DNA from: Desulfonatronum lacustre DSM 10312 | Lineage (GTDB): Bacteria; Desulfobacterota; Desulfovibrionia; Desulfovibrionales; Desulfonatronaceae | DNA: 64,000 nucleotides | Reading direction: 5' to 3' | Assembly (NCBI RefSeq): GCF_000519265.1 | Contig: NZ_KI912608.1 | Span: 1,367,582-1,431,581 of the forward strand | Shown: positions 1 through 21,315 of the stretch, in pieces | Layout of the letters: each line of letters starts with the position of its first letter | Position numbering within the stretch: the stretch's first letter is position 1 | Notes under the pieces: generated by a model | The model's database searches: none | The model's input: the letters and a program-made list of their open reading frames with translations, nothing else | Told to the model about the DNA's origin: nothing | Translations under genes and position numbers: made by a program

Positions 1-508
1 TGGTGATTCCGGCCAGAACCAGGGCTCTGGTGTTCACCCAGGCGTTGTGGCCGTCAATGGATTTAAGCAGCACCGGACGGTCCGGAACAATGGCGTCCAG
101 ATGCTCGCGGCGCGGCGCAAGATCCGGCAACCAGCCCCCGCCCCGGATGAAGTCCTGGTCCTGGTTGGCCCGGGCATAGCTCGCGATATGGGCCAGGCAG
201 GCATCCCGCTCCACCAGACCGGTCAGATTGCACTCCACCAGATTCATGCCGCCGAGGATGGGGTGGATGTGGGCGTCCCGGAACCCCGGCAGGATCAGTC
301 CGCCCGCAATGTCAACAACCTCCGTGTTCGGCCCGATCCAGGCCCGAATCTCCCGGGCCGTGCCCATGGCCGCGATCCTGCCCTGGCGCACGGCCACGGC
401 ATCGGAGCGTGTTTCTGACGCGTCTTTTGGCGCATCATTTGGTGCGCCTGGCCCGGCAACACGCCCCGCCAACAGGACGCTGTCCGCATAGGGTCGTCCG
501 TGATTCAT
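1..508 (-). CDS. Amidohydrolase, YtcJ-like (Amidohydro_3), N-terminal part
   Basis: This gene runs off the left edge of the window, so only the first 169 residues are visible. Translation from the ATG at 508 gives a typical amidohydrolase opening: a small beta-sandwich (VRQGRIAAMG, residues about 39-48) and then PGFRDAHIHP (about 74-83), whose HxH pair binds the catalytic metal. The later GGGWLPDLAPRREHLDAIVP and LLKSIDGHNAWVN stretches are typical of the YtcJ/Amidohydro_3 branch of exoenzyme-type hydrolases acting on cyclic amides or related compounds. The substrate cannot be read from sequence. It starts 3 bases after the stop of the upstream ATPase-acetyltransferase gene, so the two are almost certainly cotranscribed. 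Confidence 0.85.
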   Translation of the reverse strand, partial: MNHGRPYADSVLLAGRVAGPGAPNDAPKDASETRSDAVAVRQGRIAAMGTAREIRAWIGPNTEVVDIAGGLILPGFRDAHIHPILGGMNLVECNLTGLVERDACLAHIASYARANQDQDFIRGGGWLPDLAPRREHLDAIVPDRPVLLKSIDGHNAWVNTRALVLAGIT

Positions 509-511
509 GGC

Positions 512-2062
512 CTACAGATTCTCGTTGGGGTCATGGCGCCTGATGTAGGCCAGCAGGTCCCGGGCCAGGTCCGAAAAGACCTGCACCTTGTCGTAGTCAA
601 AGGGAATGTTGTTCAGATACTGCAGGATCAGGGCGTCTCCCCGGCCGGCTTCGGGTTGGATGCCGGAGAAGAAGAAGCCGAGTTTTTCCAGTTCCGTTGT
701 GACGAAACAGGTTGTCGGGTCATCCAGGGGCAATAAGAGGTCGATGGCCGCCACCTGCTTCAGGCAAAGCTCGCGGAGGATGCGCCGCACCTCGCGGACA
801 CAGTCCGAGCCATAGTCATGGACCTTGATCATGGCGCAATTTTCCAGGGGATACACCTTGGTATTGATGCGCGAGGCATGGGCAGCGAGAGACGGCGGAT
901 TTTGCGGCGGCGAGGCCAGGACATGGGGGGCGCCGATATGTTCGAGAATGCGTCCGATCATCTCCCGGTGGTGCGGAGGGGCGAAAACTTGACGCGGGCT
1001 GGGCTGTTCGAGGTAGACAAAGCTTACGACCACGCTGATCCGCTGGGTGCCGGGCTCGTCAATGCCCTTGAATTTCCAGGTGGCCGGGCTGGTGGCCAGG
1101 AGAATGCCGCAGTCCCGGTAACCCAGCTTGATCAACCCGCGCTGGGTAAAGACGTGATTGGCCACGGAATAGGAATACACCCCGGTCAGGGGACGGGTTT
1201 TGGGGGTTGTCAGCAGAAACCGGGTCAGCCGCTCCATGCAGCCCTGGTTGCGAAAAGCCTGGTTGACGAACAGAAAGGTGTACTCCGCGGTCCTGGCCTC
1301 GGCATCCTCGAACACCAGCGCGGCATGGCCCATGAACTCATTGGCTCCGGTCACGGCCACCGCGGAGATCATGTCGTCCGCGGCGTTCATTTCCGCCATC
1401 CGTTCCGGATAGTAGATGACCTCGTTGAAAAAGGTGTAGCCGTGGTTCTTGTACGCGCTGCGGGAAACCTCGATGGCCTCGTCCGCGGTCATCCGGCGCA
1501 CGGTGTAGTCGATGCGCGGCGGAGACGTCTTCGGTGCGGGGGCGCTGTCCGTGGGTTGCGGGTCAAAGGCGGTCTCCGTGGGGTCCACGTCCTGTCCCTG
1601 GGCCTCGAAACCCGGGTGGACGCTTTTTCCGGGCAGGTATTTGACCAGGCGGGTTTCCTTGCCGTCCGGCCCCAGGTTGTGGAAGGCGACCTCGTCCATG
1701 GTCTGGCGCATCAAGGCCATGCCCATGCCCCTGGCGGAAACCTGCTCCAGGTCGTCGCCCTGCTCGAAAACAGGAGCCTTGCCCGGGTCAAAGGGGATGC
1801 CCTTTTCCCGGATGATGATCCGCAGGCCCAGGGTGACCTGCTCGCAGACAATATCAAAGGCACCCGGCTCGTCGTCTTCCAGAAAGGCGTGTTGCACGAC
1901 GTTGGACACCGCTTCCTCCACCGCCAGTTCGATCCGGGAAATGTCGTCCCCGGCAAAGCCGACGAGTACGGCAGCCTCGCGCACGTATGCCAGGACAAGG
2001 GGAAGGGCCGCCATATCGCAGGGGGCGGTGAGCTTGAAGGAAAGGGAATGGTTGCGCATCAA
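512..2062 (-). CDS. RsbW-like ATPase domain fused to GNAT acetyltransferase domains
   Basis: 516 residues. Residues about 1-145 form an anti-sigma-factor-type GHKL ATPase domain: the N box IELAVEEAVSNVVQHAF has the Mg-binding Asn at residue 54, and ARGMGMALM is the glycine-rich ATP lid. A linker (about 150-185) leads to an N-acetyltransferase-like domain (about 190-335, with FRNQGCMERLTRFLL in the acetyl-CoA-binding position). A weaker GNAT-like half follows (about 395-516). Such proteins are often annotated as ATP-binding plus GNAT. A regulatory role (partner-switching kinase controlling or controlled by acylation) is inference. The gene sits directly upstream of the amidohydrolase and downstream of a cupin and a permease that carries a related ATPase domain. 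Confidence 0.8.
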   Translation of the reverse strand: MMRNHSLSFKLTAPCDMAALPLVLAYVREAAVLVGFAGDDISRIELAVEEAVSNVVQHAFLEDDEPGAFDIVCEQVTLGLRIIIREKGIPFDPGKAPVFEQGDDLEQVSARGMGMALMRQTMDEVAFHNLGPDGKETRLVKYLPGKSVHPGFEAQGQDVDPTETAFDPQPTDSAPAPKTSPPRIDYTVRRMTADEAIEVSRSAYKNHGYTFFNEVIYYPERMAEMNAADDMISAVAVTGANEFMGHAALVFEDAEARTAEYTFLFVNQAFRNQGCMERLTRFLLTTPKTRPLTGVYSYSVANHVFTQRGLIKLGYRDCGILLATSPATWKFKGIDEPGTQRISVVVSFVYLEQPSPRQVFAPPHHREMIGRILEHIGAPHVLASPPQNPPSLAAHASRINTKVYPLENCAMIKVHDYGSDCVREVRRILRELCLKQVAAIDLLLPLDDPTTCFVTTELEKLGFFFSGIQPEAGRGDALILQYLNNIPFDYDKVQVFSDLARDLLAYIRRHDPNENL

Positions 2063-2160
2063 TCAACTCCTGTGTCTGTTCCCAGGAAAACCGGTAAAAG
2101 ATTATCTGGTCGGATCAATGACGACGATCTCATACCATTTCCAATTCAAAGCTTCTCTTT

Positions 2161-2257
2161 CGGTATCGGTATCGGTATCGGGGTCGAATTAGGATTATTG
2201 GCGAACAAACAGTATCTATCCCGATCCCGATCCCGATACCGACGCCGACCCCGATAA
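2161..2257. repeat. Fold-back hexamer element, copy 1
   Basis: The left arm (2161-2187) is built of CGGTAT units. The right arm (2218-2257) is built of complementary CCCGAT/CCGATA units. They can pair over about 25-30 bases around a loop of about 30 bases. It lies just upstream of the ATPase-acetyltransferase gene and abuts the amidohydrolase relic. It belongs to the dispersed family seen also near 11.5, 20.9, 28.4, 50.5, 51.3 and 54.3 kb. Confidence 0.8.
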
Positions 2258-2267
2258 CTGCATTTTC

Positions 2268-2453
2268 TCAAGCGAAAAACGCATTGCCGAAGCTGACCCC
2301 GGCCCGGGATATCTCGCTTGGCGGGACCTCCAGGACATTGCGGTCCAGGACGACCAGGTCGGCGGACTTGCCGATACTGATGGACTTGGTGACGGCTTCC
2401 TGGAAGTCGACATAGGCCCCGCCCAGGGTGTGCGCGTGGAGCATGGACACGTG
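2268..2453 (-). pseudogene. C-terminal remnant of an Amidohydro_3 amidohydrolase
   Basis: In this frame about 60 residues read like the end of an amidohydrolase: HAHTLGGAYVDFQEAV, then IGKSADLVVLDRNVLEVP, then PSEIS. ADLVVLDRN is the hallmark strand that closes the metal-dependent hydrolase beta-sandwich, and the 'GAY..FQE' helix precedes it in YtcJ-like enzymes. No start codon or upstream amidohydrolase sequence precedes it. Upstream in the same frame is only out-of-frame cupin sequence. It is therefore a relic, apparently of the same family as the gene at the window start. It ends beside fold-back element copy 1. Confidence 0.75.
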
Positions 2454-2460
2454 GCGCGGG

Positions 2461-2901
2461 CTATTCCCGTGTTTGCGTGATGGGCAGGTCCGCTGTCCCG
2501 GCATAGAAGACCACGATGTGCGCGGGTTCGTCGCCCAGGCTTTCGCCCCAGTGCCAGGTGCCGACCACCTCGACAATGGCCTCCCCGGCTTGCAAGTCCA
2601 GGACCTGGCCGTCCAGGGTATGCACCCGCAGGCGGCCGCTGAGCAGGATGCCCGCATTGATGACCGGGTGTTGGTGCACGGGCAGCTTTGTTCCAGGCGG
2701 AATGGTGATGCTCAGAATGCGGACCTCCGGCTGTCCTTCCGGGTAGGACGGCAGCAATGCTCCATCCCAGCTCGTTTCCGCCCTGGCCAGTTCCCGGACC
2801 AGAACACCCGTGCCTTTGGCGGCAACCGGACCAGGGCCAAGCCCAGAACCAAGGAAGACGAACCAACCGATGGCTAAAAGACTGGTCAAACGACGTCGCA
2901 T
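2461..2901 (-). CDS. Exported cupin-domain protein
   Basis: 146 residues. A signal peptide is evident (MRRRLTSLLAIGWFVFLGSG, cleavage near the AAAKG-like VAAKG at about 30). The rest is one cupin barrel: IPPGTKLPVHQHPVINAGILLSG (about 72-92) carries the His pair of cupin motif 1, and GEAIVEVVGTWHWGES (about 106-121) is motif 2. Small secreted cupins of this type bind a metal and often have no known substrate. It is 30 bases downstream of the NCS2 permease gene and probably in the same transcript. Its 3' end abuts the amidohydrolase relic, so an amidohydrolase may once have followed it. Confidence 0.8.
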   Translation of the reverse strand: MRRRLTSLLAIGWFVFLGSGLGPGPVAAKGTGVLVRELARAETSWDGALLPSYPEGQPEVRILSITIPPGTKLPVHQHPVINAGILLSGRLRVHTLDGQVLDLQAGEAIVEVVGTWHWGESLGDEPAHIVVFYAGTADLPITQTRE

Positions 2902-2931
2902 GGGATGTCCTTTGTTGCGTTATTTTCAAGT

Positions 2932-4662
2932 TCAGCCGTCAATGAAAAAAGAAATGTACGTATTCCCGGAGAGATGGTAGTGCAACACGTCGCGGGCCAT
3001 TTTGGCCAGCAGGAACAGCCCCAGTCGCGACAATTCCGCTTCGTTGGCGCAGGAGGGGTGGACGGGCGGGGGGCAATTGTCCACGTCTTCGACCCGTGAA
3101 CCGCAGATGATTTCCACGAACATCCCGTCTTCCCTGCGCTGAATGTCGAACAGGCAGGTCTCGTCCCCGTCGGCGACGTGCCCGCAGAGATGATCGAACG
3201 TCTCTTCGCAGGCCAGGCGCAGGCGATGGAAGCTTCCGTCGCTCATCTTGAATTCGTGTCGAACATCCTCCAGCGTGGCCAGCAGCCTGGGCATTTCCTC
3301 CGACCGCGGCGCAAGCCGGAAGGTCTTGCGGGGCTTGGGAAAGAGGACCAGCAACAGACTCATGAACATGGCCACGAACCCACCCATGGCCACGCCGTTT
3401 TGCAGCATCGGGGCCAGAGCCACGGGCATCACCTCGGGAAAGAAACTGCGGGTTTCGGCCACGAGCCCCGTGCACAAAGACAACCCCAGGATCAGGCCGA
3501 TTTGAAAATCCAGTCCGGAACTGATGATCAGACCGATGCCCGCGGCAAAAAGCATCCCGCAGATGACCACGAGCATTCCACCGATGACCGGGGCGGGCAG
3601 GTCCAGCAGAAAACCGGAAATCTTGGGCAGAAAGGCCAGGGCGAACAGGATGGCCGCGCCCATCAAGCCGACGCGGCGGGACGCCACCCGGGTCATCTTC
3701 AGTAGCGGCAGGTTGTCGCAGAACGTGGCCACCGGCGCGGCTCCGCTCACTCCGGCCAGAGCCTTGGCCGCGGCGTCGCCGTACAGCCCGCCCTGAACCT
3801 GCTGGTAGTCCACCTTGCGAAACCGACGCAACGAAAACTGCTGCACGAGCATGATGTTCCCGGTGCCTTCCATGGCACTGACCAGCGCGGCCATGACGAA
3901 TGCGGCCAGCAGGGGGACATGGGTCAATCCCAGGTTGAGTTCGAGCCCGGGCCAGGCCCATTGAGGCAACCCGATCCAGGGCGCGGAGAGGACCTGGTCG
4001 AGTTGGAGAATCCCGAAAAACCAGGCCGCCGCGCATCCCGCGCCCAGGCCCAGCAGCGGAGTCCAGAGCCGCAACGTGGTGGTGCCGAACAGCATCAGCA
4101 GCACCAGGACGGCCATGGTGACCACGCCCACGACATAGTTGGGATACGAGCCGAATCCGGGCCGATCCGGAAAGCCGCCCTGCCACAGCTCGATGGCGAT
4201 GGGCATCAGGCTCAGCGCCACGAGGATGATCATGATCCCGCCGATTTGCGGGGTGACGATATGGCGTAAAAACCGCAGGAAGTAGGAGTAGAAAAAAACC
4301 ACCGGCGCGCTGAGCAGGGTCATGGTGGCCATCAGCTCCAGCCCGCCCATGCGGATCGCGCTCAGGGTGCAGGCCAGAAAGGCGGAATAGGAGCCCATGA
4401 AGAGCACGAACCCGCAACCGATGCGCCCCACCCGCAGGGTCTGGATCAAGGTGCCCAGGGCCGCGACCAGGATCGTGGCAAAGGTGACGAAGGCGACCTG
4501 TTCCGGCGGAGTGTGGGTGGCCTTGCCGATCATGATCGGCAGGAAGATGATCCCGTCGAAAATCAGGGAAACATGGGTCAAACCCAAAAGCAGCGACAGC
4601 CCCCAGCCCGGCTTGTCGTCCACGGCATGCAGGATGCGATCCGAATCGGCGCGTAGGGTCAT
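2932..4662 (-). CDS. NCS2 xanthine/uracil-type permease fused to a degenerate RsbW-like domain
   Basis: 576 residues. Residues about 20-440 are a polytopic membrane protein of the NCS2 (xanthine/uracil/ascorbate) family, with the NCS2-like stretches TPQIGGIMIILVAL, ALVSAMEGTGNIMLVQQ and ALAGVSGAAPVATFCDNLPLL. After a last helix (FVAMFMSLLLVLF) comes a cytoplasmic domain (about 455-576) resembling anti-sigma-factor GHKL ATPases: LRLACEETFDHLCGHV matches the N box, but His replaces the metal-binding Asn, and the G box is reduced to LSRLGLFLL. The domain may therefore sense or bind partners without hydrolysing ATP. NCS2 transporters import nucleobases by proton symport. The exact substrate is unknown. 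The gene lies between the dipeptidase and the cupin. Confidence 0.85.
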   Translation of the reverse strand: MTLRADSDRILHAVDDKPGWGLSLLLGLTHVSLIFDGIIFLPIMIGKATHTPPEQVAFVTFATILVAALGTLIQTLRVGRIGCGFVLFMGSYSAFLACTLSAIRMGGLELMATMTLLSAPVVFFYSYFLRFLRHIVTPQIGGIMIILVALSLMPIAIELWQGGFPDRPGFGSYPNYVVGVVTMAVLVLLMLFGTTTLRLWTPLLGLGAGCAAAWFFGILQLDQVLSAPWIGLPQWAWPGLELNLGLTHVPLLAAFVMAALVSAMEGTGNIMLVQQFSLRRFRKVDYQQVQGGLYGDAAAKALAGVSGAAPVATFCDNLPLLKMTRVASRRVGLMGAAILFALAFLPKISGFLLDLPAPVIGGMLVVICGMLFAAGIGLIISSGLDFQIGLILGLSLCTGLVAETRSFFPEVMPVALAPMLQNGVAMGGFVAMFMSLLLVLFPKPRKTFRLAPRSEEMPRLLATLEDVRHEFKMSDGSFHRLRLACEETFDHLCGHVADGDETCLFDIQRREDGMFVEIICGSRVEDVDNCPPPVHPSCANEAELSRLGLFLLAKMARDVLHYHLSGNTYISFFIDG

Positions 4663-5874: not shown

Positions 5875-8136
5875 TCAAACTGCCAGTGCGGCGTGGAACT
5901 GACGTTCAGCGTCTTTCTTGACAGGCGGCTGGCGGTCGGCTTTGAGGCGATATACGTTCGCCTCCAGCATCCTTTCCAAATCCTCCATCCGCACCGGCTT
6001 GGCCAAATAATCGTCCATCCCGGCTTCAATGAACTTCTCCCGGTCCCCGGTCATGGCATAGGCGGTCAGGGCGATGATGGGGACATCTTTCTTGGGACCG
6101 AGGTCGGTGGATGAGCGGATGGCTTTGGTGGCTTCCACTCCGTTCATCACCGGCATCTGAATGTCCATCAGGATAACGTCGAAATCCTGATCCTTGAACA
6201 CGTCCAAAGCCTGTTGCCCATCCTCGGCCAGGGTCACGGCGTGGCCGGCTTTTTCCAGTAATTTACCGATCGGCAGGGCGTTGGACGGGTCGTCTTCGGC
6301 CAGCAGGATGCGCAGTTTGTGTTTGGATTCATGCGGTCGTGCCGGCCCATTTCGGCCATGTCGGCCATGGCGGCCATGGCGGTCAAGAGCGCTCTCCCCG
6401 GCGGTCGGTCTGAACGGCAGGACCACATGTACGGAGGTTCCTTTGCCGACCTCGCTTTCAACGGAAATTTTCCCATCCATCAGGGCCACGAGGCGTTTGA
6501 CGATGGCCAGGCCGAGCCCGGCCCCCTGGAAGCCGCGGGCATAGGAGCCGTCCACCTGGACAAAGGGCTTGAACAGGCCGCCCAGCTTGTCGTCAGGAAT
6601 GCCGATGCCCGTGTCGGATACGCAAAACCAGATTTTGCGGACATTGTCCGTGTCCGTGTCCGTGGCCAACGGCGCGATTTCCAGCCGGACGCTCCCCTGT
6701 TTCGTGAACTTCAGGGCATTGCCCACCAGGTTGAACAGAATCTGACGGACCCGCGCCTCGTCGCCGATGAGCCGTGAGGGGGTGTCTGGATCAATGGAAC
6801 ATTCCAGATGGACGCCCTTTTCCCTGGCCGCGACCTCGAACAGGTCGGACACGGAATCGCCAAGCTCCCGGACCAGGAACTCGGCCTCGTGGATGGTCAT
6901 CTTGCCTGCTTCGACCCGGGACAGATCCAGGATATCCGAGAGCAACCGGGTCAATCGGCGAGCAGAGGATGTGCACAATTTGACGTATTCCTCCTGCTCG
7001 GCATCAAGGAGCGTGGTGTCCAGAAGCTGCATCATGCCCATAATGCCGTTGAGGGGAGTGCGGATTTCATGGCTCATGTTGGCCAGGAACTCGCTCTTCG
7101 CCTTGTTGGCGGCCTCGGCCTGGTGCTTGGCCTGGATCAGGGCGGCTTCGGCCTGCTTGCGATCCATGATATCCAGGCAGTGGCCGATATAGCCGAGAAA
7201 ATTCCCCTGGGCGTCATAGCGGGGAGTGCCGTCGTCCTGGATCCATCGATATTCGCCGTCGTGGCTGCGCAGACGGTAATCCATGCTGAACGGCTCGCGG
7301 CGGTCAAAGGCCGTGGTGTAGATGTGCAGGCACCGATCAAAGTCGTCGGGATGGACGCCCTCGATCCACCCGTTGCCCAGTTCCTGCTCCAAGGGCCGCC
7401 CGGTGAAGGCCAGCCATGGCTGGTTGAAGTAGTCGCACTTCTTGTCCAGGCCCGCGGTCCAGATCAGGGCCTGGCCGAAGTCGGCCAGGTGCCTGTAGCG
7501 CTGTTCGCTCTCCCAGAGCGCCTCTTCGACCTGTTTGCGCGCGGAAATGTCGCTGATCACAAGGTGATAGACCCATGCGTCGTCTCCGTCCCGTGCGCAG
7601 GCGGCGGACAGATGCGCCCAGAAAAGCGCCCCGTCCAATTTGACCAGCCGCAAATCCCATTTCTGGGGTTCGCCCGTCTCAACGAGTGTTTTGCGATGCA
7701 GATAGAAGATGTCCTGGTCTTCGGGAAGGATGAAGCGGGTCAAGGGCTGCTTGGCCAGCTTGCTTCTGGTCGTGCCCAGCAGGGTGGCCATGGTCAGGTT
7801 GGCCTCCAGGATCCGCCCCTCTTCATTGACCGTGCAGTAGCCCGCCGGGGCCAGGTTATAGAGGTCGAAATAGCGTGCCCGGACCGTATCCAGTTCGGCC
7901 TGGGTCCGGCGCAGCTCTTCGTTCTGCAGCTCCAGTTCGATCTTGTGCACCCGAAGCTCATGGAGGGTTTGCCGGACTTCCTCGGGAACCTGGCCTTCCA
8001 AATTCCCGGACGACCAGTCGTCATTGTCCCGCAGGTAATCCTCGGCCCGTCGCCGCAGAAGAATCCGGTCAGCGGGGCCGCCCCTTTTCTTTGAAACAAC
8101 GCTCCCGCCGCCTTGTCTTGCTTTCCGTTTGGTCAT
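5875..8136 (-). CDS. Hybrid sensor histidine kinase (PAS-PAS-HisKA-HATPase-REC)
   Basis: 753 residues, no membrane segment. A leading coiled-coil with LRVHKIELELQNEELRR (about 60-80) enters a first PAS domain (YFDLYNLAPAGY onward, to about 215). A second PAS domain follows (about 220-340, ending GHCLDIMDRKQAEAAL). HisKA has MSHEIRTPLNGIMGM (His near 370). HATPase has NLVGNALKF, DTGIGIP and GAGLGLAIV (about 480-610). A receiver domain ends the protein (about 635-735; LLAEDD, phospho-acceptor in ILMDIQMPVMNG, Lys in YLAKPV). Between kinase and receiver is a HGRHGRHGRNG stretch coded by a 9-base repeat. It is 57 bases downstream of the CheB-CheR fusion, so they may act together. Confidence 0.92.
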   Translation of the reverse strand: MTKRKARQGGGSVVSKKRGGPADRILLRRRAEDYLRDNDDWSSGNLEGQVPEEVRQTLHELRVHKIELELQNEELRRTQAELDTVRARYFDLYNLAPAGYCTVNEEGRILEANLTMATLLGTTRSKLAKQPLTRFILPEDQDIFYLHRKTLVETGEPQKWDLRLVKLDGALFWAHLSAACARDGDDAWVYHLVISDISARKQVEEALWESEQRYRHLADFGQALIWTAGLDKKCDYFNQPWLAFTGRPLEQELGNGWIEGVHPDDFDRCLHIYTTAFDRREPFSMDYRLRSHDGEYRWIQDDGTPRYDAQGNFLGYIGHCLDIMDRKQAEAALIQAKHQAEAANKAKSEFLANMSHEIRTPLNGIMGMMQLLDTTLLDAEQEEYVKLCTSSARRLTRLLSDILDLSRVEAGKMTIHEAEFLVRELGDSVSDLFEVAAREKGVHLECSIDPDTPSRLIGDEARVRQILFNLVGNALKFTKQGSVRLEIAPLATDTDTDNVRKIWFCVSDTGIGIPDDKLGGLFKPFVQVDGSYARGFQGAGLGLAIVKRLVALMDGKISVESEVGKGTSVHVVLPFRPTAGESALDRHGRHGRHGRNGPARPHESKHKLRILLAEDDPSNALPIGKLLEKAGHAVTLAEDGQQALDVFKDQDFDVILMDIQMPVMNGVEATKAIRSSTDLGPKKDVPIIALTAYAMTGDREKFIEAGMDDYLAKPVRMEDLERMLEANVYRLKADRQPPVKKDAERQFHAALAV

Positions 8137-8193
8137 GGCTTCTCTCCTTGCGACGTGTCCCCGACATTTTTCGGTCTTTTGGACCGACGGTTG

Positions 8194-11100
8194 CTAGGGA
8201 GTGGCGGGTCCATGCCTGGACACGCACAACGCCCAGGCGGGCTTTCCATGTTCGTCGCTGACCGATTCAGCCTGCAACGTCGAGAACCTTTCCACTCCGG
8301 CGTCTGTAACGACCCTGCTCCGGATCTCTTCCTTCTTTCCCGTGCCCAAGACCCGGCGGACCAGGGCAAGCTGTTCCTCCGCCTGCTCAGGAGGAAAAAA
8401 GTCATGGGGCGTTTTCCCGATCAGTTCAGCGGGCTGGACATGCAGGACTTCGGCAAAGGCGTCGTTCACGAACCGGTATGTTCCGTCGCGATTGACGCTG
8501 AAGATCGGATCGCTGGAGAATTGGACAAGCAGACGGAACCGCTCTTCGCTCTGCTGCAACGCCTCACGGGCCTTTTTCATCGTCGTGATGTCCACGAAGG
8601 TCAGCACCGCGCCTTCGATGACGTTGTCCAGGGTGCGGTAGGGCTGGATGTGCATGGCGTACCACCGGCCCTCGGTTGTCCGCACCTCCACTTGCTTGGA
8701 GACCAGGGTGTCCAGCACGGACTGGGTGTCGGATACCAGCGTGTCGTAACCGGACAAGTTGGAGACGATGTGGGCCACGGGCCGACCGATGTCGCTCAGG
8801 ATCAGGTTGATGATCCTGGTGGCCGCGGGGGTGAAGCGCAGGATGCGGAGTTGGTGGTCCACGAAAACCGTGGCAATGCCCGTGCCGGCCAGCAGATTGT
8901 TCATGTCGTTGTTGGCCCGGGACAGGTCGGCCACCTTGGTCTGCAGTTCGACGTTGACCGTGGACAACTCCTCGTTGACCGATTGCAGCTCTTCCTTGGA
9001 GGTTTCCAGCTCCTCGTTGGTGGATTGCAGTTCCTCGTTCACGGACTGCATCTCCTCGTTGGAGGACTTCAACTCTTCATTCGATGTCTCCAGTTCCTCG
9101 TTGGCGGCCTGAAGGTACTCATCCTTGGCCAGCAACTCCTGCTTCAGGGCCGCGATGCGGGCGTCGGCATCCCCCCTCTCCCCCGTGCCCGGCTCTAGGG
9201 ACGGGATGCCATCCGGCCCGATGGCCATTGTTGCCGACTTCGGCTCTTGTGCCTGCTCCCGTGCCTGTTCCAGGACGACCAGGCACAGGGGGGGCTCCAG
9301 CGAGGCGGCAGGGGCGACGGGCACCGGACGGACAATCAGGTTGACGGTGATGAAGTCGCCGTTGGTTTTGACCCGCAGACCCGGATGGTGCACGGTTTCC
9401 CTGGTTTGCGAAACGTTGTGCAGGGCGCTCGTCAGGGCGCGGCGCAGGCCCTCGCGGGCCATCTTCAAGATGTTCAGGGTGTCGCTCTCCCCGGGGGCCG
9501 GTTCCAGGTACATGCCCGTGCGGCCGTGCAGGTAAAGGATGTCGCCCTGGGCGTTGACCAGGGCCCCGGCCTGGACGACCTCTTGCAGCAGGGCCTGTTC
9601 GGTCAGCTCGCGCACCGACGGTCTTTTGGGGGCGGACGTCCTTTCGGCACCCTGTGGGGATGCGGCCCCCATGGCCGTCATGGACGGCACGAACCGCCCC
9701 AGGCTCGTGCGCTGGCCCCCCGAAAGGTCGTCCTTGCGCTGGAAGAGCTTTTGCTTGCGCTCCAGCGCGGCAAAGATGTCCAAAAACTCGCCCACGGTCT
9801 CGGAAGACCCCAGAAAGAGAAAACCGCCCGGACGCAGAGCGTAGTGGAACAGCGGGATGATTTTTTTTTGCAGCTCGGCGCTCATGTAGATCAGCAGGTT
9901 GCGGCAACTGATCAGGTCGAGCTTGGAAAAGGGCGGGTCCTTGATCACGTTCTGCTCGGAAAAGACCAGCATGTCGCGAATCTTCTTGTGGATGCGAAAG
10001 GCGCTGTTGTCCGGCTCGGTCGTAAAAAAACGCTCCAGCCGCTCCGGTGAAATATCCGCGGCGATGGAAGCCGGATAGATCCCGGCCCGGGCCGTGGCAA
10101 TGGCCCGGCTGTCAATGTCCGTGGCAAAGACCTGGACCTGGAAGTTCTGGCGGATGGCCGCCTGGTGTTCAGCCAGAAGGATGGCCAGGGAATAGGCCTC
10201 CTCACCGGTGGAGCAGCCCACGGACCAGACCCGGATGACGGCGTTGGCCGACCTGCCGGCAAAGAGCTTGGGCACGATCTGTTCCTCCAAAGCCTTGAAG
10301 GCTTCGGGGTCGCGGAAGAAATTGGTCACCCCGATGAGCAGGTCGCGGAACAGGGCGTCCACCTCTTTCGGCGCCTGTTGCGCGAACCGGACGTAGTCCT
10401 CCATGGTTTCGATCTGATGAACGGCCATGCGCCGTTCGATGCGCCGCAGGACAGTGGATGGTTTGTACTGGGAAAAGTCGTGCCCGGTCTGGCTGCGCAG
10501 CAGGACATAAATTTTTTTCAACGCCGTGTCGGCCTTGGGCGCGGGGGTCGCGGGCTTGGGAGGCCGACCAAAGGCATGGGCCGCGTAGGTGACAAGCTGG
10601 GCCGGCATCTCGGCCGGCGGCAGCTCGAAATCCACCAGGCCCGTGGCCAGGGCGCTGCGCGGCATGCCGTCGAATTCCGTGGATGCCGGGTTCTGGGCCA
10701 TGACCATGCCGCCCTCGCCCTTGATATCCCGGACGCCAAGGGTGCCGTCGCTGCCCGTGCCGGAAAGCACGATGCCGATGGCCCGTTCGCGTTGATCATG
10801 GGCCAGGGAGCGGAAGAAGAAGTCGATGGGCAGACGATGACCACGCGGGGCGGCGGGCTCCAGCAACTGGAGCGAGCCGTTCAGGAAGGCCATGTCCCGG
10901 TTCGGCGGGATGATGTAGGTGCAGTTGGGACGGACCTGCATCCCATCCTCCACCTCGAAGACCTCCATCCTCGTGTAGCGCCGGATCAGGTCCGTGAGCA
11001 TGCTTTTGTGATCCGGGGCCAGGTGCTGCACCAGGACAAAAGCCATGTCGGGGTCGGCATTCTCGGGCATGGCGGAGAAGAAGGCCTCAAACGCGGCCAG

Positions 11101-11331
11101 GCCCCCGGCCGAGGCCCCGATGCCCACGATGGGGAAGTCCGGGCCGTGACCTGGATCGGGGCCTGGATCGGGGCCTGGATCGGGCACGGGATCGGGCTGT
11201 TGCGACGCTTCAGCCGACTCCGGCGCGGCTGCTTCCTGTCCGGCGGCCTTGCTCGGCTTGGCCTTGCTTTTCTTGCTTTTCTTGCTTGTCTTGCTTGTCT
11301 TGCTTGTCTGGCTTGTCTGGCTTGGAGACAT
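8194..11331 (-). CDS. CheB-CheR fusion with C-terminal PAS domains
   Basis: 1045 residues. The N-terminus is low complexity (SKTSKTSKKSKKSK, then DPGPDPGPDPG), coded by 9-base and 12-base repeats. The CheB methylesterase domain (about 68-250) shows the catalytic Ser in GIGASAGGLAAFE, His in QHLAPDHKSML and Asp in GTGSDGTLGVRDIKG. The CheR methyltransferase (about 265-540) shows WSVGCSTGEEAYSLAI (AdoMet site) and DLISCRNLLIYM. A long coiled coil of NEELETSNEELKSSNEE type (about 725-790) leads to two PAS domains (about 800-1035). This architecture is well known in bacteria with complex sensory networks. It likely sets methylation-linked output of a chemosensory or two-component pathway, perhaps through the hybrid kinase just downstream. 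Confidence 0.93.
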   Translation of the reverse strand: MSPSQTSQTSKTSKTSKKSKKSKAKPSKAAGQEAAAPESAEASQQPDPVPDPGPDPGPDPGHGPDFPIVGIGASAGGLAAFEAFFSAMPENADPDMAFVLVQHLAPDHKSMLTDLIRRYTRMEVFEVEDGMQVRPNCTYIIPPNRDMAFLNGSLQLLEPAAPRGHRLPIDFFFRSLAHDQRERAIGIVLSGTGSDGTLGVRDIKGEGGMVMAQNPASTEFDGMPRSALATGLVDFELPPAEMPAQLVTYAAHAFGRPPKPATPAPKADTALKKIYVLLRSQTGHDFSQYKPSTVLRRIERRMAVHQIETMEDYVRFAQQAPKEVDALFRDLLIGVTNFFRDPEAFKALEEQIVPKLFAGRSANAVIRVWSVGCSTGEEAYSLAILLAEHQAAIRQNFQVQVFATDIDSRAIATARAGIYPASIAADISPERLERFFTTEPDNSAFRIHKKIRDMLVFSEQNVIKDPPFSKLDLISCRNLLIYMSAELQKKIIPLFHYALRPGGFLFLGSSETVGEFLDIFAALERKQKLFQRKDDLSGGQRTSLGRFVPSMTAMGAASPQGAERTSAPKRPSVRELTEQALLQEVVQAGALVNAQGDILYLHGRTGMYLEPAPGESDTLNILKMAREGLRRALTSALHNVSQTRETVHHPGLRVKTNGDFITVNLIVRPVPVAPAASLEPPLCLVVLEQAREQAQEPKSATMAIGPDGIPSLEPGTGERGDADARIAALKQELLAKDEYLQAANEELETSNEELKSSNEEMQSVNEELQSTNEELETSKEELQSVNEELSTVNVELQTKVADLSRANNDMNNLLAGTGIATVFVDHQLRILRFTPAATRIINLILSDIGRPVAHIVSNLSGYDTLVSDTQSVLDTLVSKQVEVRTTEGRWYAMHIQPYRTLDNVIEGAVLTFVDITTMKKAREALQQSEERFRLLVQFSSDPIFSVNRDGTYRFVNDAFAEVLHVQPAELIGKTPHDFFPPEQAEEQLALVRRVLGTGKKEEIRSRVVTDAGVERFSTLQAESVSDEHGKPAWALCVSRHGPATP

Positions 11332-17090: not shown

Positions 17091-17121
17091 AGTGGATTGC
17101 GAATTGGGAGATTGCATGCCG

Positions 17122-17137
17122 GTATCCGATCGGATAC
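17122..17137. promoter_or_regulatory. Perfect 16-base palindrome before higB, likely operator
   Basis: GTATCCGATCGGATAC is identical to its own reverse complement and ends 10 bases before the toxin start. Toxin-antitoxin operons of this kind are repressed by their antitoxin at such palindromes, so HigA binding here is the natural inference. Confidence 0.6.
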
Positions 17138-17147
17138 ACTCGACTGC

Positions 17148-17447
17148 ATGAATAGCTTTTACCGCTCCGACGAATTCGATTCCTGGCTCGCGGCATTGAA
17201 AGACAAGGTGGGTCGTGCCCGCATAGCCCATCGCATCCGGTCTGCCGAGCACGGAAATTTCGGTGACTGTGAGCCTGTGGGCGAAGGGGTCTCTGAAATG
17301 CGTATTCATTTCGGCCCCGGCTACCGAGTCTACTTCACCCGTCGCGGCGGGTTGCTCTATCTGCTTCTGTTGGGCGGCGACAAGTCCTCGCAGAAGCGCG
17401 ACATCAAACGCGCCATTGAGATGGCGCGGACTTTGGACAAGGAGTGA
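17148..17447 (+). CDS. higB: RelE/HigB-type toxin
   Basis: 99 residues from the ATG at 17148. FDSWLAALKDKVGRARIAHRIRSAEHGNFGD, followed by VSEMRIHFGPGYRVYFTRRG and LLLGGDKSSQKRDIKRA, is the standard phage-derived Gp49-like/HigB addiction-killer layout. The Arg and Lys residues of GPGYRVYF and GGDKSSQKRDI are those expected of a ribosome-dependent mRNA endonuclease. The toxin gene comes first and the antitoxin follows after 3 bases, as usual for HigBA. Isolated between minus-strand genes, the pair was probably acquired by transfer. Confidence 0.9.
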   Translation: MNSFYRSDEFDSWLAALKDKVGRARIAHRIRSAEHGNFGDCEPVGEGVSEMRIHFGPGYRVYFTRRGGLLYLLLLGGDKSSQKRDIKRAIEMARTLDKE

Positions 17448-17450
17448 ACC

Positions 17451-17738
17451 ATGACCAAATTTGCCCCCTTCGACGCTGCCGACTACCTGGACAATGAAGA
17501 CACCATCGCGGAATATATAGCTGCCGCACTGGAAGATCCGAATCCCGACGTATTTCTCTCCGCGGTGCGTGATGTGGCTCGCGCCCGGGGCATGGCCCAA
17601 CTCGCGAAAGACGCCGGCCTTGGCCGCGAGAGCCTTTACAAGGCGCTGACGCCCGGCGCCAAGCCACGCTACGACACGATGCTCAAGCTGTTACATGCTC
17701 TCGGCGTAAAGCTCTCAGCTTCCCCGATCCATTCGTGA
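17451..17738 (+). CDS. higA: HigA-type antitoxin
   Basis: 95 residues. AAALEDPNPDVFLSAVRDVARARGM is followed by a helix-turn-helix: MAQLAKDAGLGRESLYKALTPG. The end, YDTMLKLLHALGVKLSA, completes the addiction-module antidote fold. It should bind and neutralise the toxin upstream and repress the operon, probably at the palindrome 17122-17137. AAGGAG at the toxin's 3' end provides the ribosome site, so translation is likely coupled. Confidence 0.92.
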   Translation: MTKFAPFDAADYLDNEDTIAEYIAAALEDPNPDVFLSAVRDVARARGMAQLAKDAGLGRESLYKALTPGAKPRYDTMLKLLHALGVKLSASPIHS

Positions 17739-17854: not shown

Positions 17855-18796
17855 TTACCGCGCGCTCTTCATGTCCGGCCTGAACATCTGATAGTTGTTG
17901 CGCCCGTTTTTCTTGGCATAATACATCGCGGCGTCGGCATTGCAGAGCACCGTGTCCATGTCCTTGGCGTCATCCGGATAGATGCTGATGCCGATGCTCA
18001 GGGTCACCTGGTGGAAACTCTGGTCGCCGACAAGATGCGGCTCAGCCACGGCCTCGATCAATTTTTGCGCGGTGAGGGTAACGCCGCCGACATCCTCGAC
18101 ATCGGTCAACAGCACCACGAATTCGTCGCCTCCCTGGCGGCTGACGGTATCCGAGAAGCGGACGCACGTTTGCAAACGCTTTGCAACGGACTGCAACAAC
18201 TGGTCGCCGATGGAATGTCCGAACGTATCATTGATTTGCTTGAAGTTGTCGACGTCCAGATACATCAGGGCGACCTTCGTGCCGTGACGCTCGGCGAGCG
18301 CTATCGACCGTTCCAATCGGTCGGCCAGCAGGGCCCGGTTCGGCAAGCCCGTGAGAAAGTCGTGCTCGGCCTTATGGGTCATTTGTCGGACGGTCTGCTC
18401 AGCGGCTTCAGCCGCGGTTTGGGCGCGGACCGTCGCGACGACGAGTTTTTCATTGACTTCGCGGAGCAATGCCTCGGGTTGCCCACCCTCCGCGAACGAT
18501 GTTTTCTCATACAACCTCCCGGCACGCGAATCATTCCTGCGCGGTCCGAAAGTTTTCCTGCGCCGCTCCGCGAAACCTTGGCGCCTGTCAGTGTCCCTCC
18601 TGCGCCTGTCAGTGTCCCCTTTGCGCCTGTCTTCGACATGTTTGCCGACAAGGGCCGTTTGTCTGGCGGCAGCAGGTAAAGCCATACGTCGTGCAAGGTC
18701 GTTCATGATCGCCAAAGCAGGATATCCGGGGCTTACGCGCGTCGTTTGCCGCTCACCGGGAGCGGTATTGTGCCGGGAACGTCCATTCATGCGCAT
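17855..18796 (-). CDS. Diguanylate cyclase (GGDEF), soluble, with DRR-rich N-terminus
   Basis: 313 residues. The C-terminal GGDEF domain (about 145-310) has HDFLTGLPNRALL at its entry and an intact active site RQGGDEFVVLL. An RFSD motif five residues before GGDEF is the RxxD inhibitory site for c-di-GMP feedback. The N-terminal 110 residues are basic, with repeated DRR/ERR pairs (VEDRRKGDTDRRRRDTDRR), then a short coiled coil. No sensor domain is present. The start overlaps the KaiC-like gene, with GGGAGG nine bases before the ATG at 18796; a second ATG at 18790 is possible. Activity is probably set by the KaiC-like partner. Confidence 0.9.
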   Translation of the reverse strand: MRMNGRSRHNTAPGERQTTRVSPGYPALAIMNDLARRMALPAAARQTALVGKHVEDRRKGDTDRRRRDTDRRQGFAERRRKTFGPRRNDSRAGRLYEKTSFAEGGQPEALLREVNEKLVVATVRAQTAAEAAEQTVRQMTHKAEHDFLTGLPNRALLADRLERSIALAERHGTKVALMYLDVDNFKQINDTFGHSIGDQLLQSVAKRLQTCVRFSDTVSRQGGDEFVVLLTDVEDVGGVTLTAQKLIEAVAEPHLVGDQSFHQVTLSIGISIYPDDAKDMDTVLCNADAAMYYAKKNGRNNYQMFRPDMKSAR

Positions 18797-20286
18797 TGCT
18801 GTTTGCCTCCCTTGATCGTGTCTTCCGTCCTGATAAGCGACGGCTGACCACCAAGAATGCCTTCGTAGTCGAGCACCGGGTCGCCGATGACGATGCCCTC
18901 ATCGGTTATCTCATACCGCCTGATCTCTTTGTTGTGAGCGCTGGCACGCACCTTGACCACCGCCATGACCCGCTGCAGACGGCTTCCCACCTCAATGTAG
19001 CGCTGCACGATGATCGCATCGGTGAGAAAGGCCGCCCCATAGGGGCTGAACCGCAAATCATTGTAGCGATCTTCGAGTTCCGACGTCATCAGCACCGTGA
19101 CCCCGAGTTTGGACAGCACGGTGAACATCCGAAAAAGAGACTCTCGAAAGTCCTCGCGAAAGGTCGGCGCCACGGCCAACTCGAACCCGGACAATGAATC
19201 GATCACCACACGGGCGGCGTTCATGCGCTGAATGAGTTCGGTCAGACGATAAACAATCTCGTCGATGGACAGATCCAGGGAACGGGTATTGATCAGGCCA
19301 ACTTGTCCGTTACAAATCATATCGTAAAGCGTGCGCATACAGGATTGATTCGGCGTTTGTTCAAAAGCAACGATCACGCCCGGCTCGCCCCGGCGGACGC
19401 CTTCGGCAAGAAAGGCCGTGGCCAGAACGGTCTTTCCCGATCCGGACGGCCCCGCCACCAACAGGGAATACCCCGACGGCAACCCACCGCCCAGCATTTC
19501 GTCGAGGCGCGCCACGCCGGTGGCCAGCCTCACCCTTCTGCACGGCTTCCCGGCCACCGACGAGGCGCCCCCGATGGTGTCCAGAACCAGCGCGGTCGGG
19601 TAGACGGCGATCCCCGCGCTGGTGATACTCAAGGTATGCATCCCCGGGCTCGTCGCCTGGCCGCGCATTTTCAGAACCTGAATTTTGCGGACCATGGAAT
19701 TGCGATAGACGCTTTGATGCAGCGAGAGCAGGCCGTCGGCCACGGTGAAGACCGGATGGTATTCGCTTTCCGACGAGTATTCACCAATCAGAAAAGAGGT
19801 GGCCTGCCAGCAGCTCAGTTGGATTCCGAGCTGCTGGATGAACTGTTGCAGGTTGATGGTGTCCCTGGGAAGTTGCCGCGCCTCATACATCACCGAGCGG
19901 AAGGAATCGACGAAAACCAGACCCGGTGGTGAAACCTGGACTTCCTGGGCGATGCGCGCCAGCACCCGATCATAATCGCCGGATGCGATGTCCTCGCTCA
20001 GGCTGACGAAACGAATCGTGTCATTGACTTTGTCTGGGTTGAAGAACGAAAACTGCTGTTGATAACGCAGCATCTTCAGCGGCGGTTCGCCGAGCACGGT
20101 GAAAAACAATGCGGGTTTCTCCCGGGTTGCCAGGGAGAACATGATTTGGTTCACCAGCGTCGTTTTGCCGGAACCCGGGGGCCCAATAATGATGTTGAAG
20201 GAATATTCCGGCAAACCGCCGCCCAGGATCGCGTCAAGGCCCGCTACGCCCGTGGGCAGACGACGGATGACTGTTTTCTCGTTCAC
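18787..20286 (-). CDS. KaiC-like double-domain ATPase
   Basis: 499 residues, two RecA-fold KaiC domains. Domain 1 (about 1-235) has Walker A GPPGSGKTTLVNQ and Walker B-like PPGLVFVDSFRS. Domain 2 (about 250-490) has GPSGSGKTVLATAF and AARVVIDSLSGFE. The catalytic Glu pair of cyanobacterial KaiC CI is not obvious: domain 1 has TVLGEPPLK and domain 2 FEQTPNQS. The length matches KaiC. No kaiA or kaiB is nearby. It starts with GTG in a GTGA overlap with the upstream unknown gene and overlaps the GGDEF gene at its end, so the three form a tight operon. A timing or stress-signalling ATPase driving a diguanylate cyclase is inference. Confidence 0.9.
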   Translation of the reverse strand: MNEKTVIRRLPTGVAGLDAILGGGLPEYSFNIIIGPPGSGKTTLVNQIMFSLATREKPALFFTVLGEPPLKMLRYQQQFSFFNPDKVNDTIRFVSLSEDIASGDYDRVLARIAQEVQVSPPGLVFVDSFRSVMYEARQLPRDTINLQQFIQQLGIQLSCWQATSFLIGEYSSESEYHPVFTVADGLLSLHQSVYRNSMVRKIQVLKMRGQATSPGMHTLSITSAGIAVYPTALVLDTIGGASSVAGKPCRRVRLATGVARLDEMLGGGLPSGYSLLVAGPSGSGKTVLATAFLAEGVRRGEPGVIVAFEQTPNQSCMRTLYDMICNGQVGLINTRSLDLSIDEIVYRLTELIQRMNAARVVIDSLSGFELAVAPTFREDFRESLFRMFTVLSKLGVTVLMTSELEDRYNDLRFSPYGAAFLTDAIIVQRYIEVGSRLQRVMAVVKVRASAHNKEIRRYEITDEGIVIGDPVLDYEGILGGQPSLIRTEDTIKGGKQQCA

Positions 20287-20714
20287 GATAATCTCTCCTG
20301 TTCAGACTGAGGAGATGCCCAAACCGGGCCCAACAAGCGCTCGACCAATGGCTCTCCAATCATGTCCACCAACAGTTTGATGAAGGTCGCAAGCAGAGCA
20401 TGGCATGCCTCCGCCGCGGCATCCGGCTCACTGTTCGCCAAGCGCGTCTTGATCTCCGCGAGTACCGCGGAATTGTTGTCTGTATCCTCGGGAACCGCCA
20501 GCCACGGGTATGCCTTGCTCGTCATGTGCAGCGTGCAGGCAAAGAGAATGTTGAAGCCCCGCACGCCGATCACCGGCGAAAGCTGGGCACTCATCTGGAG
20601 CCAGATATCGAATACAGCGTCAGCGACGGCCGCGGCGTCCGGGGAGTCTCCGACGCGATCCGCCAGGGTTCGCCGAATCGCTTCTCGATCCAAGCCACTG
20701 TCTTTTTTCGGCAT
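20283..20714 (-). CDS. Unknown protein, first gene of the KaiC operon
   Basis: 143 residues, soluble and mostly helical by appearance. I do not recognise a named family. Visible features are an N-terminal helix DREAIRRTLADRVGD, a central LSPVIGVRGFNILFACTLHMTS, and FIKLLVDMIGEPLVERLLGPVW near the end. GGGAGA precedes the ATG at 20714. Its stop overlaps the KaiC start by four bases (GTGA), so equal expression with the ATPase is likely. By position it could be an adaptor or sensor input for the KaiC-like protein. Confidence 0.75.
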   Translation of the reverse strand: MPKKDSGLDREAIRRTLADRVGDSPDAAAVADAVFDIWLQMSAQLSPVIGVRGFNILFACTLHMTSKAYPWLAVPEDTDNNSAVLAEIKTRLANSEPDAAAEACHALLATFIKLLVDMIGEPLVERLLGPVWASPQSEQERLS

Positions 20715-21006: not shown

Positions 21007-21315
21007 TTACGGCTGCGCGGATCCCAACAGAAAACGGATTTCATTGTCCGTCATGACATGACCGGCCTGTCCACGGGCCTGGTAGGTTCCTCTTCGGTCA
21101 TTGCCGACCCGACGCTCCTCCGCGGCATCATGCTTGAATCCTTTCTTTTGTGAGGATTTTCCATCATTCATGTGCAGCGTCCCATGAACCCCACGCGCAC
21201 GTCTTTCATCTTCCAACCGTCTGTCCAGGCCGCTTCTGCGGTCGGTCTGCTTCCTGCGATCCGTGTCCGGTTTTCGTCGCCCTGCGCCGGTACGCCCGTC
21301 CTGTTGTGTCTGCAT
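21007..21315 (-). CDS. Basic DRR-repeat hypothetical protein
   Basis: 102 residues. The N-terminal 40 residues repeat acidic-Arg-Arg units: TDRRKQTDRRSGLDRRLEDERR. A second set, AAEERRVGNDRRG, lies near 67-79. The protein ends MTDNEIRFLLGSAQP. The same unit occurs in the N-terminus of the diguanylate cyclase at 17855-18796. I do not recognise a family with known function. The ribosome site is weak (GGGAG close to the ATG), so the start is uncertain. It lies 33 bases downstream of the flavodiiron gene and could share its transcript. Confidence 0.55.
   Translation of the reverse strand: MQTQQDGRTGAGRRKPDTDRRKQTDRRSGLDRRLEDERRARGVHGTLHMNDGKSSQKKGFKHDAAEERRVGNDRRGTYQARGQAGHVMTDNEIRFLLGSAQP

Follow-up and report, generated by a model that had tools for sequence, protein, structure and literature searches.

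What does a KaiC-type ATPase control when its gene lies between a gene for a small unrecognised protein and a gene for a diguanylate cyclase? This question is raised by a locus of Desulfonatronum lacustre DSM 10312, located in a stretch of 64,000 nucleotides (contig NZ_KI912608.1, positions 1,367,582 to 1,431,581; hereafter the window) of the 3.76-Mb genome, which forms one contig. An initial annotation had described three overlapping genes, for an unrecognised 143-residue protein, a two-domain KaiC-like ATPase and a GGDEF enzyme, and had proposed that the first two are the inputs of the third, which would link a clock- or timer-like ATPase to cyclic di-GMP (c-di-GMP). The list of open reading frames (ORFs) of the window confirmed the three minus-strand genes, here termed S, K and G, with overlaps of 4 base pairs (bp) between S and K and 10 bp between K and G (Table 1). 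S and K were found to recur in front of differing signalling enzymes. From these sequence comparisons we regard it as on balance probable that S-K-G is one version of a mobile module in which K would be the switch, S the adaptor and a helical segment the responsive part of the effector, with contacts that we infer.

S and K form a conserved unit in front of an effector gene

A search for the three-gene order had been set beforehand. Among 297 genomes of the window's order, six close K genes were found (68-100% identity, the window included); S precedes and a GGDEF gene follows each of the six. The other matches listed in this search had 34% identity or less, and such distant KaiC genes were not counted as K. 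When 348 genomes of the class were scanned with an S profile, nine proved to carry S, in 10 copies (E<=4e-60); the following match was already at E 0.003, and matches at this value and above were taken as chance. A GGDEF effector accompanies all 10 copies and K accompanies six of them. Within the window's genus, S is present in four of the eight genomes listed. Two loci were dropped before counting, L077 (same DNA as L031, 4,000 bases compared) and L079 (same as L030).

A scan of contigs gave nine named loci, two of which had already been counted. The seven new ones, from Thermodesulfobacteriota, Pseudomonadota and Acidobacteriota, all carry S followed by K, and the third gene encodes a GGDEF-EAL protein in six of them (read in Rhodoferax on a second contig, which carries the remainder of K) and a histidine kinase in a member of the Holophagaceae. 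A K search of 250 genomes from the order of a Rhodocyclaceae metagenome-assembled genome (MAG) gave 10 with K (E<=1e-100; identity to the query, 52-76%), and besides the MAG itself an S-like sequence precedes K in nine of nine, split by an insertion element in L104 and matched in its second half only in L109. Four of 72,556 plasmid records contain K (three from Caballeronia, one from Paracoccus), each with S upstream, and one of these K genes is broken. PLSDB annotates the intact plasmid loci as hypothetical protein, ATPase domain-containing protein, and then diguanylate cyclase or HWE histidine kinase. Taken together, the K searches gave 20 close K genes (6 + 10 + 4), and each of them is directly preceded by S, be it intact, broken or partial; a same-strand effector follows K in 17 of the 20, L108 being at a contig edge.

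In the Acidobacteriota, the phylum of the Holophagaceae genome, a 20-row S profile matched 8 of 189 genomes, that genome included. The other seven all show S and then K (in two frames in L126), with a histidine kinase next in six of the seven. Of 25 loci tabulated, 18 have a 4-bp overlap of S and K, and the K proteins outside Desulfonatronum share about 49-74% identity with that of the window. Because this gene order is also seen in further genera and phyla, we rejected a strain-specific accident. The three genes are a conserved unit, which agrees with the proposal that S and K are the likely inputs of the cyclase.

Nearly all effectors share a helical segment, and their outputs differ

G contains a GGDEF domain (PF00990, 6.6e-51), and RFSD is found five residues before GGDEF, so that the I-site is intact, as annotated. 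The cyclase had also been described as lacking a sensor. This is correct in so far as the structure model (7 rows; mean predicted local distance difference test score, pLDDT, 66) has no confidently folded domain before GGDEF, with residues 1-106 mostly at low confidence. However, the N-terminus is not empty: it carries heptads encoded by 21-bp repeats, as well as a helical segment that is common to histidine kinases elsewhere and that lies in a helix modelled over residues 107-149. The pattern LREANExLVxATxxAQ, written after seeing the 22 effectors scanned, or a variant of it precedes the output domain in all 22. The segment is also present in the Paracoccus kinase, and at two Caballeronia loci the effector has it and so does a convergent hybrid kinase; a convergent hybrid kinase with the segment was found at three Caballeronia loci.

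The output domains behind this segment differ widely. According to Pfam, they comprise GGDEF, GGDEF-EAL and GGDEF with HATPase (with HisKA in Caballeronia), and, among the kinase-type outputs, HisKA-HATPase, HisKA-HATPase-receiver, GAF-PAS-kinase-receiver, PAS-kinase and HWE kinase. The proposed link to c-di-GMP therefore holds for the GGDEF effector found here, but it describes one version only, as histidine kinases follow S and K in other lineages. Each of the 22 GGDEF effectors tested has intact GGDEF and RxxD motifs. In the five EAL-bearing effectors of one genus (g256), DNFGTG stands in place of the EAL motif DDFGTG, and the four Desulfonatronum effectors and L071 have no EAL domain; in these lineages, the phosphodiesterase half thus changes or goes while the cyclase motifs stay.

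In a tree of 30 KaiC proteins, the 25 S-linked K proteins form one group (100/99) against five other KaiC proteins, namely those of L038 (beside a KaiB gene), L037, L039, and L033 and L034 (near GGDEF genes). S-linked K genes occur at 33 loci, of which the tree uses 25; it omits L082/L102 (divided between contigs), L108, L109, L126 (two-frame K containing Ns) and the four plasmid K genes L130-L133. With GGDEF-HATPase scored as cyclase, at least three changes between cyclase-type and kinase-type output are needed on this tree, a number that is a minimum on one tree because seven forks are open and the end branches of L110 and L106 are long.

As gene order cannot reveal direction, the effector might in principle act on K, with c-di-GMP or a kinase output controlling an ATPase that has another output. 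We consider this very unlikely, since K outside Desulfonatronum stays about 49-74% identical to that of the window although the effectors differ in chemistry, which is easier to understand with K upstream of the effector. The patchy distribution, the plasmid copies and the nearby insertion elements could moreover suggest that signalling genes merely hitch-hike loosely on mobile DNA without a joint function. Against this speak the overlapping frames, the adjacency of S and K in 20 of 20 cases, the single K group that spans three phyla and the segment common to otherwise different effectors, so that we regard hitch-hiking as most unlikely.

Two features of the effector genes are noted in addition. 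Tandem repeats of 21 bp, with about 2.4 to 5.6 copies by Tandem Repeats Finder (TRF), encode N-terminal heptads (e.g., ADQREEV; DRR units in the window) at six loci, namely the window, L075, L076, L080, L081 and L030. In L081 (8940-12531), a tandem pair of GGDEF-EAL effectors carries the segment in both members.

K is a double-domain KaiC-type ATPase without the clock phosphosites

K matches PF06745 above the Pfam cut-off (6.9e-71) in two stretches, corresponding to two KaiC domains, and the nearest solved chains are KaiC (phmmer, best E 1.6e-58). By homology, K would assemble as a hexamer. Walker A and B are present in both domains of all 25 S-linked K proteins aligned, that of the window included, and the glutamate in each catalytic loop is kept in all 25. 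None of these 25 proteins has the Ser-Thr phosphosite pair of clock KaiC, which is replaced by Ala-Phe in 19 (the window's K among them), by Ser-Phe in four, and by Cys-Phe and Ala-Ile in one each. In the alignment to solved KaiC, this site corresponds to Ser431/Thr432. K is also below the NCBIfam cut-offs for clock KaiC, with 142 bits against 546 for TIGR02655 and 217 against 408 for NF006799. KaiB (PF07689) was not found in the window's genome at E<=0.001, so that the annotated absence of kaiB extends to the whole genome; as a control, the same model was found in 6 of 14 named genomes, Synechococcus included.

Neither a clock nor the clock- or timer-like ATPase of the initial annotation is supported, as the Ser-Thr pair is missing from all 25 S-linked K proteins and the genome yielded no KaiB; we rejected a clock as the main reading. 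A true hourglass or clock, in which ATPase cycling by K times c-di-GMP synthesis, would be in keeping with the double-domain KaiC and the presence of both nucleotide sites, and one study reports that the Synechococcus rhythm is shifted by c-di-GMP levels (PMC13001216). In view of the missing pair in 25 of 25 K proteins and the missing KaiB, such timing is nevertheless highly unlikely, and according to the text of De Luca et al. (2011; PMC3164672) a KaiC that is unable to phosphorylate two residues probably cannot sustain a cyclic timer. The short C-terminal tail of K was dropped as an argument against a clock, as the difference (10 against about 16-22 residues in the solved KaiC shown) is too small. 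Membership of K in a defence system was likewise rejected, as PADLOC gave P-loop matches only (best mad8, 3e-14 over about 74 residues); its scan had no match for S or G.

S is an all-helical protein of an unnamed family

S gave nothing at E<=1 against Pfam and a single match against NCBIfam at E 0.21, which is noise. Twenty S proteins gave only scattered single matches in these two databases, the best with an E of 0.009 for one member, and the S profile against solved sequences reached E 0.44 at best, again noise. Single-sequence searches with S matched the window's genome only (1 of 395 genomes) and none of 68 candidates in the contig scan. The AlphaFold model of S consists of helices only (mean pLDDT 83). 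In fold comparisons, the best Foldseek E among the rows listed was 2.0, and VIA-align gave a best Z of 6.8 for part of pyruvate phosphate dikinase, which is in the range that the tool calls common for helical proteins. The rows listed contained no informative match to a PDB structure; KaiA and KaiB were absent among them, which excludes nothing.

Run on 18 loci with distant KaiC genes, the S profile matched one protein, in L036 (three overlapping loci, E 0.0017). As this weak S-like protein (6464-6877) precedes the distant KaiC gene (6883-8838), S may reach further than counted here. L036 also belongs to three loci (L033, L034 and L036) in which a distant KaiC gene of the window's order is accompanied by a small gene and by one for a GGDEF protein, a second KaiC-GGDEF arrangement. 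By eye, its proteins have receiver-like N-termini; no Pfam receiver was found in the two proteins tested. In L104 (2180-5110), the element that splits S has a second copy at about 8762-11132.

S and G are retained at loci that have lost K

K is lost while S and G are kept at four of the 10 S loci of the window's class (L069-L072), all of them in g256, with L070 and L071 in one genome. The K gene of L069 breaks off after about 62-69 codons, and its reading frame runs out where G begins. As S and G of this locus share 92% and 95% identity with those of the K-bearing L032, the loss of K in L069 is recent. Remnants of K some 27 codons long are left in L070 and L072 (tblastn E 0.004 and 0.15), L070 additionally has a trace of the 3' part of K (E 0.0003), and nothing clear is left of K in L071. 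In pairwise Nei-Gojobori comparisons of L070 with L072, the synonymous divergence (dS) was 0.63 for S and 0.70 for G, and the ratio of nonsynonymous to synonymous divergence (dN/dS) was 0.24 for S and 0.18 for G. The K-bearing pair L031-L032 had similar dN/dS values, 0.23 (S) and 0.29 (G).

That S and G persist where K is gone speaks for S being closest to the effector, and S may thus be a nearer input of the cyclase than K. A different arrangement would have K contact the effector segment directly, with S confined to the regulation or assembly of K, a role like that of KaiA or KaiB towards clock KaiC. The position of S directly upstream of all 20 K genes from the K searches would suit such a role, and in L038 it is a KaiB gene (PF07689, 6.9e-24) that takes this position, immediately ahead of a KaiC gene. 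We regard this arrangement as rather unlikely, since S has been retained with G at dN/dS well below 1 where K is lost, and since the S model is all-helical, unlike the KaiB fold.

A proposed switch with exchangeable outputs

We therefore return to the module with S as adaptor. K, as a KaiC-type ATPase without the residues of the phosphorylation clock, would work as a nucleotide-state switch, and S, as a small helical adaptor, would relay the state of K to the N-terminal helical segment of the effector. The segment would then set the activity of whichever output domain follows, which in Desulfonatronum would be a diguanylate cyclase limited by its own I-site, presumably with c-di-GMP as output, and elsewhere a GGDEF-EAL protein or a histidine kinase. 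The action would run from K via S to the segment by direct binding, and the signal sensed might be ATP/ADP or a ligand of S. As S, K and the segment recur while the enzyme varies, a switch with exchangeable output fits better than a clock. More tentatively, and with somewhat less than even confidence, we suggest that S and K represent a KaiB-independent, perhaps also KaiA-independent, KaiC core with a portable effector helix in at least three phyla, in which S directly regulates the effector and can outlive K.

Several observations weigh against this interpretation. No same-strand effector lies beside K in L109 (in the stretch read) and L126, and the plasmid locus with the broken K has the convergent hybrid kinase only. 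Additional S-like genes without K directly after them are present in L126 (8580-9284, just before the S of the locus) and L127 (4372-5055, apart from it), and a K-less S lies on a Polaromonas plasmid. The module is rare and patchy: it was found in 1 of 297 genomes of the window's phylum, and for the phyla of the Rhodocyclaceae MAG and of the Holophagaceae genome the counts are 1 of 200 and 8 of 189, respectively; the single match in the 297- and 200-genome samples was the centre genome each time. In 10 genomes, the 14 matches to a profile of the segment (38 positions, 21 segments, E<=0.01) all fell within effectors next to S, which speaks for the module, but as the profile was built from effectors of the module, only the lack of other matches is informative, and weaker relatives of the segment exist. 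In loci found later, its match was strong in L123 and L124, weaker in L125 and weak in L128 and L129 (E about 0.0007), and the segment was not found in the L127 effector. Finally, L071 looks degraded, as the usual start codon of S is gone and the EAL part is missing, and the K-less loci are compatible with a direct partnership of S and G as well as with decay of the system.

Comparison with known KaiC systems

To our knowledge, many bacterial KaiC relatives without clock partners have no known mechanism. De Luca et al. (2011; PMC3164672) make this point in their text for several such relatives, and they report there that bacterial kaiC genes from outside the cyanobacteria nearly always have signalling genes in their vicinity, including those for histidine kinases or GGDEF/EAL proteins. 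A KaiC beside c-di-GMP enzymes is therefore not new. Their third, "black" kaiC group has mostly one or no phosphosite, and the K proteins resemble it in having few phosphosites and receiver, histidine kinase or GGDEF/EAL neighbours, and AF is among the residue pairs given in the legend of their Fig. S6. Unlike the neighbourhoods described in that text, the loci studied here have a conserved small upstream gene, an effector segment in common and an output that changes within one kaiC clade; the figures of the same paper mark hypothetical proteins (HP), so that S could be drawn there unnamed. In the literature searched, which consisted of open-licence papers, we found no account of S, the effector segment or output swapping. 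The combination of a constant partner, a recurring effector helix and changing enzymes thus offers a concrete test of KaiC signalling outside clocks, and it marks the helix as a possible graft by which other enzymes might be made to answer to K and S.

The double KaiC fold of K is shared with the cyanobacterial KaiABC clock, from which the module differs by the absent Ser-Thr pair, the KaiB that was not found and the scores below the cut-offs of the clock models. Archaeal KaiC-like ATPases were reportedly proposed as signalling hubs by Makarova and colleagues in 2017. Such hubs likewise link KaiC-type ATPases to varied signalling outputs; unlike them, the S-K module is found in bacteria, its KaiC has two domains, S is its constant partner, and the effectors have a segment in common. 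A kaiBC cluster with a GGDEF/EAL gene occurs in Legionella. In Rhodobacter, the kaiBC cluster has a histidine kinase gene, as described in PMC5520375. The S-K module resembles these clusters in grouping a KaiC ATPase with a signalling output, but they have kaiB, whereas the module has S and no KaiB. In L106, positions 3-3394 comprise a KaiC-KaiB-KaiB cluster (PF06745, PF07689 twice) and one more gene on the same strand (1673-3394), both upstream of the S-K-effector module. The cluster stops roughly 3 kb short of S, the additional gene comes in between, and the module begins about 1.3 kb after that gene.

Layout of the locus and neighbouring genes

The features of the locus are collected in Table 1. 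A promoter and terminator scan gave no excess over shuffled sequences.

Table 1. Positions of S, K, G and their motifs in the window.
Feature	Position	Strand	Description	Basis
S	20283-20714	-	First gene; 143 aa; all-helical; unnamed family	ORF; homologues upstream of K elsewhere
K	18787-20286	-	Second gene; 499 aa; GTG start; double-domain KaiC-type ATPase	PF06745 twice
G	17855-18796	-	Third gene (effector); 313 aa; GGDEF diguanylate cyclase	PF00990
K domain 1 Walker A	20161-20184	-	GPPGSGKT	Sequence alignment
K domain 2 Walker A	19429-19452	-	GPSGSGKT	Sequence alignment
K phosphosite place	19018-19035	-	AAFLTD; KaiC phosphosite place, here Ala/Phe	Alignment to solved KaiC and 25 K
G N-terminal heptads	18557-18625	-	Basic heptad repeats (DRR units)	TRF, 21-bp period at 18581-18631
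G helical segment	18359-18472	-	ALLREVNEKLVVATVRAQ...; conserved; proposed docking/input element	Pattern, profile, helix in model
G I-site	18149-18160	-	RFSD	Motif
G active site	18119-18133	-	GGDEF	Motif

Just downstream of the operon and convergent to it, a pair of genes for a Gp49-like protein (PF05973) and an addiction-module antidote-like protein (PF21716) is located on the plus strand (17097-17738). Upstream of S, a minus-strand ORF of 102 amino acids (21007-21315) has DRR repeats like those of the cyclase N-terminus, and an ORF in L028 (7336-7698) shows a weak resemblance to the cyclase N-terminus with its DRR repeats (E 1.2).

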